Below are positions 7,287-9,624 of a stretch of DNA of 64,000 nucleotides, in pieces. Source of the DNA: Variovorax paradoxus. GTDB lineage: Bacteria > Pseudomonadota > Gammaproteobacteria > Burkholderiales > Burkholderiaceae_C. Each line of letters opens with the position of its first letter. The first letter of the stretch is position 1. Position numbers and translations under genes: made by a program. Location: contig NZ_CP102931.1 of NCBI RefSeq assembly GCF_024734665.1, positions 866,001 to 930,000 on the forward strand, read 5' to 3'. The notes below the pieces were generated by a model. It had not been told where the DNA came from and ran no database searches. It saw nothing but the letters and a program-made list of their open reading frames with translations.

Positions 7287-8357
7287 TCATCCGATCGGGT
7301 GGCGGTGGAAGGCCGAGTAGCGGCCCGTGACGTGGTGTTCCAGCTGGCGCTCGATGTCGGCCAGCAGGGTGGAGGCGCCGATGCGGAACAGGTCGGGCTC
7401 GAGCCAGGCGCGGCCCAGCTCTTCCTTCATGAGCACCTGGTAGTCGAGCGCGGTCTTGGCGGTGGAGACACCGCCGGCGGGCTTGTAGCCCACGCGAAAA
7501 CCCGTGCGGGCTTCGTACTCGCGGATCATGCGCAGCATCACCAGCGTGACCAGCGGCGTGGCGTTCACGCCTTCCTTGCCGGTGGAGGTCTTGATGAAAT
7601 CGGCGCCGGCCATCATGCAGACCATCGAGGCCTTGGCGACGTTGCGCAGCGTCTTGAGTTCGCCGGTCGCGAGGATGGCCTTCACGTGCGCATCGCCCGC
7701 TGCCAGGCGAAAGTCGCGCATCTCGTCGTAGAGCTTTTGCCACTGCCCGGTGAGCACGTGTTCGCGCGTGATGACGATGTCGATCTCGGCCGCGCCGTCG
7801 CGCACCGAAGCTTCGATCTCCTTGAGCTTGAGCTCGTGCGGAATCAGCCCCGCCGGAAAGCCCGTGGACACCGCCGCCACCGGAATGCCGGTGCCCGCGA
7901 GCGCATCCACGGCCGTGGCCACGAAGCGGTGATAGACGCAGACCGCGCCGGTGTGCAGCGTGCGATCTGCAAAGCCCAGCGCGGCCAGCAGGTCGGGGCG
8001 CACGGGGGCCACGGCCTTGGCGCACAGCCTGCGCACGCGCTCGGCCGTGTCGTCGCCGTTGAGCGTGGTCAGGTCGATGCAGGTGATGGCCTTGAGCAGC
8101 CAGCCGGCCTGTGCATCTTTCTTGACCGAGCGGCGACCGGGCAGCGTGGCCACGCGGCGTTCGGCGGCCGAGAGGTTGACGCGGATGTTGTCGAACCAGC
8201 CGGCGTCGAAGGGTTGCGCGGTGTTGCGTGCGATGGGGTGTGGCTTTTTGTCGTGCGTCGTCGCGGTGGCAGCGGCTGGAGGCGACGCAGTCGCGGCGGC
8301 CGGAATGGGGCGCGAGCGCACCGCGCCGCTGGCGCGAACGAGGGAAGTGGAAGTCAT
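7287..8357 (-). CDS. deoC: Deoxyribose-phosphate aldolase, long eukaryote-like form
   Basis: A 356-residue class I aldolase that splits 2-deoxyribose-5-phosphate into acetaldehyde and glyceraldehyde-3-phosphate in the cytosol. The Schiff-base lysine is K256 in GADFIKTSTGK; EIDIV (D193) and the phosphate-binding GYKPAGG follow the family pattern. It is about 100 residues longer than E. coli DeoC. The middle (ITCIDLTTLNGDD) and end (HHVTGRYSAFHRHP) closely match the animal DERA pattern as I recall it, so it belongs to the long subfamily. The first 45 residues are low-complexity Ala/Pro-rich and may be dispensable or may reflect a start chosen too early. It is first in a two-gene unit with the aldehyde dehydrogenase, under the DeoR-type operators at 8475-8525. 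Confidence 0.92.
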   Translation of the reverse strand: MTSTSLVRASGAVRSRPIPAAATASPPAAATATTHDKKPHPIARNTAQPFDAGWFDNIRVNLSAAERRVATLPGRRSVKKDAQAGWLLKAITCIDLTTLNGDDTAERVRRLCAKAVAPVRPDLLAALGFADRTLHTGAVCVYHRFVATAVDALAGTGIPVAAVSTGFPAGLIPHELKLKEIEASVRDGAAEIDIVITREHVLTGQWQKLYDEMRDFRLAAGDAHVKAILATGELKTLRNVAKASMVCMMAGADFIKTSTGKEGVNATPLVTLVMLRMIREYEARTGFRVGYKPAGGVSTAKTALDYQVLMKEELGRAWLEPDLFRIGASTLLADIERQLEHHVTGRYSAFHRHPIG

Positions 8358-8474
8358 GGAGTGAAGGGCGCCGGGGCGCGCAGGCGCCGCGTGAGCGGCA
8401 GGCAGGCAAGGGGCATGTCTTTGTCTCCGATCGTTGTGCAGGCCGCCGTGCAGGGCCGGTGGCGCATTGGCGTG

Positions 8475-8494
8475 AATGTTATTTCAATAACATT
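8475..8494. promoter_or_regulatory. DeoR-type operator, copy 1
   Basis: AATGTTATT and AATAACATT form a perfect 9-bp inverted repeat separated by TC. The 16-bp core TGTTATTTCAATAACA has the same layout as the E. coli DeoR operator (TGTTA...TAACA). It lies about 118 bp upstream of deoC and upstream of the divergent DeoR-family gene, so that regulator is the natural candidate to bind it. Confidence 0.7.
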
Positions 8495-8505
8495 TATCTG
8501 TGCAA

Positions 8506-8525
8506 GATGTTTTTTAAATAACATT
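8506..8525. promoter_or_regulatory. DeoR-type operator, copy 2 (one degenerate half)
   Basis: The right half AATAACATT (8517-8525) is identical to that of copy 1. The left half GATGTTTTT (8506-8514) matches AATGTTATT at 7 of 9 positions, with a 2-bp spacer. The two copies are 31 bp apart centre to centre, close to three helical turns, so bound regulators would sit on the same face of the DNA. The site flanks the start of the inverted-repeat element at 8540. Confidence 0.65.
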
Positions 8526-8539
8526 TTCGATGCCCGATA

Positions 8540-8809
8540 CTAGGGTGAATCGACATTCAAACGGGGCCGCGTTGGCCCGCTTTGCACCCGGATGCGCGAA
8601 GGGCGGCGCAGGCCAGAGTCATCTCTGGCCAAGCCGCCCGACAAAGCAGGCGGGTGCAAAGCGGGCCAACCCGAAGGGAAGGACGAATGCCGGGCGCAGT
8701 GCGGCGTTGCGGCTCGCTTGCGTAGCTAAGCTACGCGGCGCTCACCGCGCCTTGCACTGCACCCGGCATTCGTCCTTCGCGGCCCCGTTTGAATGTCGAT
8801 TCACCCTAG
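8540..8809. repeat. Branched (three-way) inverted-repeat element, possible MITE
   Basis: The ends are a perfect 32-bp inverted repeat (8540-8571 with 8778-8809). The interior holds two further long hairpins. Arm A pairs 8571-8590 with 8651-8670 (20 bp, perfect) and encloses GGGCGGC/GCCGCCC and an 8-bp stem GGCCAGAG/CTCTGGCC with a TCAT loop. Arm B pairs 8678-8694 with 8762-8778 (17 bp, perfect), then 8696-8702 with 8754-8760, and ends in GCGTAGC/GCTACGC with a TAA loop. Almost the whole element can therefore fold into a Y shape. The outermost bases on both sides are CTAG, which fits the YTAR target of IS5-group transposases, but because CTAG is self-complementary a true target duplication cannot be proven. 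It contains no credible gene and looks like a mobile non-autonomous repeat. Confidence 0.85.
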
Positions 8810-8835
8810 GGCTTGTGGACCAGAGGAACCAGAAC

Positions 8836-9624
8836 ATGCGAAAGACCGCCGGCGCCGAGGCCCGGGCCTTGCGCCTTGCAAAGATGCAGGAGCTCGTCGA
8901 GGCCGGCGGACCGTTGCCGATCAAGCAGGCCGCCCAGCGGCTGGACGTGACGGAAATGACGATCCGCCGCGACCTGTCGGCCGCCGACTCGCCGCTTACC
9001 GCCCTCGGTGGCTACGTGCTTGCCACAACGCTGCCGGGCGCCGACAGGTACTCGCTCGACGAGGCCAGCGACCAGCACGCGGCGCACAAGCGCGTGGCCT
9101 GCGAACGCGCCGCCACGTGGGTGCAGGCGCACGACAGCCTGTTCATCGACTGCGGCACCACCATGGTCCATTTCGCGGAGGCCTTGCCGCCCGACATGCC
9201 GCTGAGCGTGGTGTGTTACTCCACGAACATCGCGTCGATCTTGAGCCGCCGGCCGAACACGCAGTTGATGCTGCTGGGCGGGCTGTACCACGCGTCGTCG
9301 GCCACGTTCTTTTCCGACGAGGGGCTGCAATATCTCAACCGGCTGGGCGTGAACAAGGCCTTCATTTCAGCCGGCGGACTGGACCTGGAGCGGGGCGCGA
9401 GCTGCTCCAATTTTCACGAAGTGCCGGTGAAGCAGGCGGCGATCCGCAGTGCGTCGCAGAGCTTCCTGATCGTGGATGAAAGCAAGCTCAACCGCCTGCG
9501 GCCCGCGTTCTTCAGTCCGCTCGATGCGTTTGCGCGCATCGTGGTGGGCGGGGCGCCCGTGCCGGGTCTGCGCAAGCAGTTCAAGGATTTGCCGATCGAG
9601 TTTGCGCGGCCCACAACCGCTTGA
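8836..9624 (+). CDS. DeoR-family transcriptional regulator
   Basis: A 262-residue DeoR-family repressor with an N-terminal helix-turn-helix (about 15-45, containing KQAAQRLDVTEMTIRRDLS) and a C-terminal sugar-phosphate-sensing domain with the family patterns DSLFIDCGTTMVHFA and LNRLGVNKAFISAGGLD. The ATG at 8836 has GAGGAAC upstream and gives a normal N-terminus. A longer in-frame reading from 8530 runs through the inverted-repeat element and is not believable. It is divergent from deoC and probably represses the deoC-ALDH unit and itself at 8475-8525, with a phosphorylated (deoxy)ribose as the likely inducer. The repeat element lies between the operators and this gene. Confidence 0.9.
   Translation: MRKTAGAEARALRLAKMQELVEAGGPLPIKQAAQRLDVTEMTIRRDLSAADSPLTALGGYVLATTLPGADRYSLDEASDQHAAHKRVACERAATWVQAHDSLFIDCGTTMVHFAEALPPDMPLSVVCYSTNIASILSRRPNTQLMLLGGLYHASSATFFSDEGLQYLNRLGVNKAFISAGGLDLERGASCSNFHEVPVKQAAIRSASQSFLIVDESKLNRLRPAFFSPLDAFARIVVGGAPVPGLRKQFKDLPIEFARPTTA

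Follow-up and report, generated by a model that had tools for sequence, protein, structure and literature searches.

A probable IS5-family MITE with a conserved branched fold between operator-like repeats and a deoR gene in Variovorax paradoxus

The 64,000-nucleotide stretch of Variovorax paradoxus DNA analyzed here (the window) contains a deoC gene and, divergent from it, the gene of a DeoR-family regulator. A 270-bp element lies between these genes and, as the initial annotation had placed it, separates the operator-like repeats (8476-8526) from the regulator start at 8836 (Table 1). That annotation also described a perfect 32-bp terminal inverted repeat (TIR) enclosing two long hairpins, and the description holds: the two TIR arms are complementary at 32/32 positions, and the fold has perfect runs of about the 20 bp and 17 bp ascribed to the inner stems. 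Arm B closes on a 28-nt stem that is 89% complementary and arm A on a 25-nt stem that is 96% complementary. Between the arms sits a 9-nt mini-hairpin, which had not been singled out before and is among the most constant parts of the family. Folded as single-stranded DNA, the element reaches -138 kcal/mol versus -61.4 ± 4.1 kcal/mol for shuffled sequences (z = -18.6), with 0 of 200 shuffles as low. The element is geneless, as claimed, in that no open reading frame of at least 50 codons is confined to it, the longest encoding 47, 45 and 39 amino acids. One frame stays open from 8530 through the element into deoR, ending at 9624 as a possible 364-residue fusion, and is probably a product of chance.

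Table 1. Coordinates of the element, its parts and the neighboring features in the window
Feature	Position	Strand	Remark
deoC, divergent neighbor	7287..8357	-	
Pair of operator-like repeats, on the upstream side of the element	8476-8495 and 8507-8526	.	also recognizable in empty orthologous loci
Whole element, including CTAG at each border	8540..8809	.	270 bp
Left CTAG, at least partly target, with putative duplication of TA or CTAG	8540..8543	.	
Left TIR	8540..8571	+	32 bp
Arm B, stem 8568-8595 / 8646-8673 plus capped inner hairpin	8568..8673	.	
Central mini-hairpin CCCGAAGGG, other strand CCCTTCGGG	8670..8678	.	9 nt
Arm A (R1 is its covariance model), stem 8678-8702 / 8754-8778	8678..8778	-	
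Conserved core GCAACGCCGCA of arm A	8700..8710	-	alignment
Apical hairpin of arm A	8720..8736	.	fold prediction
Conserved core GCAAGGCGC of arm A	8747..8755	-	alignment
Right TIR	8778..8809	-	32 bp
Right CTAG	8806..8809	.	
Gene of the DeoR-family regulator, on the downstream side of the element	8836..9624	+	PF00455, PF08220

The genome itself holds one copy of the element, and BLAST matches to it occur in 17 of 101 genus genomes, its own included. Near-full copies with 94-97% identity are found in four sister genomes (G059, G081, G056 and G006), where the flanks are unlike those of the window; others of the 17 have truncated copies, lone TIRs or diverged relatives. At all 21 further orthologous deoC-DeoR junctions compared (L197-L217) the element is absent, and two of the genomes with an empty junction (G059 and G056) carry a near-full copy elsewhere, while two more (G086 and G002) have a lone TIR or truncated copy. 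Relatives can be richer in copies, the arm matches reaching at least 34 in G052, a genome with 28 + 28 TIR sites at up to 3 mismatches. Among 20 copies fetched from G052, CTAG stands at both borders of 14, at one border of 4 and at neither border of 2. The copies elsewhere and the empty orthologous sites rule out a regulatory leader unique to this locus. We infer transposition itself from ends, borders and empty sites, which are directly observed, and consider it very likely that the element is a non-autonomous, geneless transposon, or MITE. The earlier suggestion of an unusual multi-arm MITE is thus upheld: copies are dispersed and bordered by CTAG, the orthologous sites are empty, and IS5-family elements share its ends. 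Neither outcome named there as speaking against mobility, a single copy anywhere or conservation at the locus, was observed.

The insertion can be read against its empty counterparts base by base. The window has ATA-CTAG-element-CTAG-GGCTTG versus ATACTC in 20 of the empty loci and ATACTT in one. The four target bases in the 21 relatives are CTCG (10), CTCC (8), CTCA (2) or another sequence (1) and in none CTAG, so a base change before insertion must be assumed. The CTAG on both sides, in the window and in 14 of the 20 G052 copies, may thus reflect a duplication of the target, although none of the empty relatives of the window's site presents an unaltered (CTAG) target. The initial annotation was right that CTAG stands at both ends; the outer CTAG of each 32-bp TIR, which it had counted with the repeat, is at least partly target. 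CTAG is scarce in this DNA, with 14 occurrences in the 64-kb window apart from those of the element versus 196 expected from base composition, an approximately 14-fold under-representation. Three loci from three genomes, L172, L177 and L178 (near 1501 in each), appear to be the same site and have a CTAGGGTGAATCGACATTCA-like stretch without an element, which is either a remnant or a chance match.

Identification of a partner transposase relied on the ends of the element. Its outer 18 bases, CTAGGGTGAATCGACATT, are identical to the left end of an 850-bp insertion sequence (IS) from a Comamonas thiooxydans plasmid (L191), which has CTAG at both ends and whose right end agrees over 20 bases. The L191 transposase frame belongs to the IS5 family (NF033580, 134.5 bits with a cut-off of 110; PF13340). 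A second TIR class, GGGCSTGTTAAC, has an IS with both ends in L137 (830 bp) and is represented in Variovorax by L141, L142, L161 and L163, IS of 828-832 bp. A third class, GGGYSTGTCATCAATCA, matches both ends of the 875-bp IS of L194 (NF033580, 126.7 bits). For three TIR classes, that of the window included, IS5-family IS with both ends were thus found. Two further classes have partial partners: L396 presents two IS-like ends 0.9 kb apart, and in L397 an annotated IS5 transposase adjoins one end, the other not being found within 4 mismatches of 20. Only one IS-like end was found in L192, L193, L195, L394 and L395.

A search of the genome itself at up to 1 mismatch of 16 returned only the two TIR tips of this element. 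At the same threshold, 8 of 101 genus genomes contain the element's tips, at 21 sites in all, and the sites read comprise elements, remnants or lone tips, with no IS among them; the genus search for transposases used the frame of another TIR class rather than that of L191. Because no genus site was seen to end an IS, the partner of the window's class is known here only from the Comamonas plasmid. Relatives of the L191 transposase were not confirmed in any viral contig. Carriage on phages was rejected because the element itself has no match among 50,697 phage records; nor has it one in the plasmid records searched. Plasmid copies are rare in those records: the class found in G052 occurs in 1 of 72,556 and another TIR class in 6, with a coverage of 80% or more in one. 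A plasmid of Comamonas odontotermitis has a copy of another TIR class (L393:1501-1772) close to a gene for a predicted SMR efflux protein, with matches at 4 places in that record.

The partner elements resemble the IS427 group, including IS870, an assignment that would rest on size, target and frames rather than on a group-level profile. Elements of the IS427 group are given as 832-865 bp, mostly with 2-bp direct repeats and some with two overlapping frames, in the accessible portion of PMC3281130, and the title of Fournier 1993, as cited in PMC6471742, ties IS870 to CTAG. The family shares the CTAG borders with these IS, and IS of 0.83-0.87 kb with MITE-class ends carry PF13340 IS5-family transposase frames. 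It differs from them in being without a transposase, and its folded core was not noticed in the IS examined. Among known small elements, the Correia elements, or NEMIS, of Neisseria are IS5-related MITEs, geneless and present in many copies with TIRs. Each Correia element is a single hairpin of about 100-155 bp, as opposed to the two-armed core seen here, a comparison made with the Correia description rather than with its sequences.

A candidate relative is the Beta-proteobacterial repeat element (BRE) of Hot et al. 2011, which the available text of PMC3110155 describes as about 90 bp, GC-rich, chromosomal and mostly intergenic, with 29 in Polaromonas sp. JS666. An assembly that bears this strain name gives 17 arm matches with our model R1. 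By description, a BRE is near one arm in length and occurs as 1-8 tandem units, as opposed to the TIR-bounded fold, and TIRs, a transposase and a branched fold are absent from the portion of the description available (PMC3110155). BRE may be one arm of the family. Two arm matches close together on the same strand, tandem-like in the manner described for BRE, were seen at G081:C161:107581-107790, L043:1501-1703 and L087:1417-1617. A published account of an element with these TIRs and this fold was not found in the literature searched, which lay outside subscription papers and preprints.

Conservation of the fold is evident in a MAFFT alignment of 14 sequences covering arm A and the mini-hairpin, which was not fitted to any model. 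Both partners have changed in 24 of its 36 consensus pairs. Of 500 column shuffles, none attained the observed value in four covariation measures out of five and 1 did so in the fifth, and sliding the partners by 1-3 columns lowered pairing from 97.6% to 34-45%. The covariance model R1 has matches in 57 of 101 genus genomes, 177 of 399 in the family (81 of 141 genera), 84 of 300 in the order (50 of 135 genera), 64 of 274 in the class (54 of 222 genera) and 43 of 398 in the phylum sample (30 of 212 genera), these samples overlapping slightly. Copy numbers are lower bounds because scoring in these scans was confined to 9 to 36 candidates in each genome. Named genomes, scanned for an exact pattern, gave at least 120 stretches. 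Among the 80 matches listed, the hosts include Burkholderiales, Nitrosomonadales, Ectothiorhodospiraceae and Aquisalimonas, together with metagenome-assembled genomes labeled Acidobacteriota, Spartobacteria and Omnitrophota, labels that may be binning errors.

Across loci the architecture is consistent. By hand count 74 of 100 loci have two matches to the arm model, one on each strand and about 96 bp apart (4 of 104 were left out of this count), so that two inverted arms, homologous as judged by these matches, flank the mini-hairpin; in the window, arm B gives no match to R1. The mini-hairpin consensus is CCC-TNC-GGG, or CCC-GNA-GGG, with the CCC/GGG stem in 99 of 100 loci. Its loop reads TNC on one strand or the other in 94 of 100, a count that leans toward the loop favored by the model. 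In 99 of 100 loci, 21-23 nt separate the conserved core from the mini-hairpin. Among 182 elements extracted, selected for lengths of 262-276, the 98 with clean ends have the hairpin at a distance of 127-134 nt from either end. In the 100-locus alignment, which was fitted to R1, the 21 pairs of the outer stem are 93.8% Watson-Crick, 3.6% G-T and 2.6% mismatched, versus 42.9% Watson-Crick when shuffled, and all four pair types occur in 18 of 21 columns; 39 of the 75 G-T cells fall in one column. The 9 inner core pairs are kept less well (89.8% Watson-Crick, 8.5% mismatched). R1 derives from Variovorax relatives, and both the matches it gives and the alignment fitted to it lean toward its own structure and loop.

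These observations suggest an explanation in which we have good confidence as a whole, namely a MITE whose fold is under selection as DNA. The element would be moved in trans by IS427/IS870-like IS5-family transposases, which would recognize the tips of its TIRs and direct its insertion into CTAG or a near variant of that target. Its folded core, the two arms and the CCC-TNC-GGG mini-hairpin, would be kept through great divergence, with TIR tips differing by class to fit different IS5-family elements. The fold would matter as DNA, whether as a cruciform or as a single strand in replication, for the element's own spread, and copies unable to fold would not be propagated. At the present locus, such an element would have landed between the operators and the deoR start. 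That the fold is actually required is a narrower claim, which we place at an even balance at best. Its strongest form, in which the folded three-armed DNA is the selected unit, needed in cis for transposition, and has passed between several IS5-family transposase specificities by a swap of its TIR tips only and spread through many genera, is offered tentatively.

The relation of tips to cores fits an exchange of TIR tips on related cores, to the extent that automatically delimited TIRs permit. Element pairs with an arm identity of 0.6-0.7 have a mean TIR identity of 0.44, near the 0.47 of pairs with an arm identity of 0.3-0.5, and among closer pairs the mean rises to 0.59, 0.75 and 0.90. Changes within a genome bear on selection more directly. 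When the 20 copies of G052 are set against their consensus, 71 stem changes are one-sided (56 break a pair and 15 leave a wobble) and 6 are two-sided, so single copies decay. In the long run, by contrast, the folds observed are nearly all intact. Selection through spread is then the simplest reading, since only foldable copies would beget new ones.

The main rival to a selected fold is an ordinary IS5-family MITE with passive arms, the pairing of which arose by template switching within hairpins; we consider this unlikely. Quasi-palindrome correction is a mechanism of this kind, and several loci look as it would leave them. The orthologous pair L036/L040 has 2 two-sided changes in place, even target bases appear corrected in the CCAG...CTGG borders of L006 and L008, and arm deletions in L010, L023, L180 and L138 fit replication errors at hairpins. 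Template switching should, however, erase bulges and loops, yet conservation extends to unpaired bases of the core (AA/AAC), to the TNC loop and to the length of the arms. Its corrections are also sparse, the G052 changes being mostly uncorrected (71 versus 6) and L036/L040 itself showing 8 one-sided versus 2 two-sided changes. In L010, L023 and L180 (near 1501) and in L138:2500-2555, one or both arms have been lost, down to a TIR palindrome of about 51-55 bp; L138 and L139 are the same locus with and without arms on two V. paradoxus plasmids.

MITEs are usually taken as shrunken IS whose inside is irrelevant; here the inside is conserved in shape, with fold, arm length and central loop persisting over a wide host range as letters and TIR tips turn over. 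The question of whether a DDE transposase or the host reads folded DNA in a mobile element becomes testable. As a widespread repeat family that lies outside Rfam at gathering score, it can also confuse assembly and small-RNA prediction.

Alternatively, the element might act as RNA, as a structured leader, a terminator or a small RNA, which we regard as improbable. Because it lies in the DeoR leader, the element is probably transcribed at this locus, and its possible relative BRE occurs in the region of the Bordetella small RNAs bprJ1/bprJ2 according to the part of PMC3110155 available. We take transcription as leader to be a by-product of the landing place. On one strand CCC-TNC-GGG corresponds to C(UNCG)G, the classic stable RNA tetraloop. 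On the opposite strand the sequence is C(GNA)G, which forms an exceptionally stable loop in DNA, so the loop favors neither RNA nor DNA. Against a role as RNA, the orientation relative to genes shows no significant bias (13 same to 8 opposite in tandem contexts, p = 0.38, a small sample of low power), G-T (G-U) cells are rare in the conserved stems, and a terminator-like site was not found within 8380-8860. The Rfam search returned 10 matches up to an E-value of 1, all far below the gathering threshold, so no family is assigned at gathering score. The earlier alternative of a structured leader RNA accordingly finds no support in strand preference, G-T pairs or Rfam. That G-T pairs are rare and that orientation is not significantly biased points to DNA over RNA, without proof.

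The inverted arrangement of two hairpin units, which are homologous to each other in most loci, also recalls a REPIN, a palindrome pair moved by a RAYT (tyrosine) transposase, and like the family REP/REPIN sequences are dispersed inverted palindrome pairs. In the window GCTT adjoins each apical hairpin, on facing strands. REP/REPIN sequences are far shorter, however, and have no TIR or target of this kind, and their transposase is of a different class. The long TIR, the CTAG borders and the ends identical to IS5-family elements all oppose this reading, to which we give almost no credence. REPs are described as 20-40 bp and tagged GTAG or CGTC in the accessible text of PMC3733652, and the anatomy of the element does not correspond to such palindromes, on which ground a REPIN/RAYT origin was rejected.

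Returning to the MITE with a DNA fold, the settings of its relatives suggest where such an element would settle: genus copies often border a TAG stop codon, which leaves the gene intact. In Variovorax, 32 of 53 copies have a neighbor's TAG stop at the border (TAGG) versus 34 of 116 background CTAG sites (p = 1.7e-4), the 53 being those with neighbors callable by the codon-usage script used for gene calling; the p-values are rough, as background loci partly overlap. The 32 divide into 17 of 23 loci assigned to G052 and 15 of 30 others. With CTAGG required at the border, the stop-codon enrichment is weaker (25 of 53, p = 0.036). Convergent contexts are also enriched, at 22 of 53 copies versus 9 of 55 gene pairs in the window (p = 0.005). 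Overall, landing at TAG stops looks like low-harm targeting. At a few borders, CCAG...CTGG in L006 and L008 and CCAG...CTAG in L180, target bases outside the TIR have seemingly changed together like a pair.
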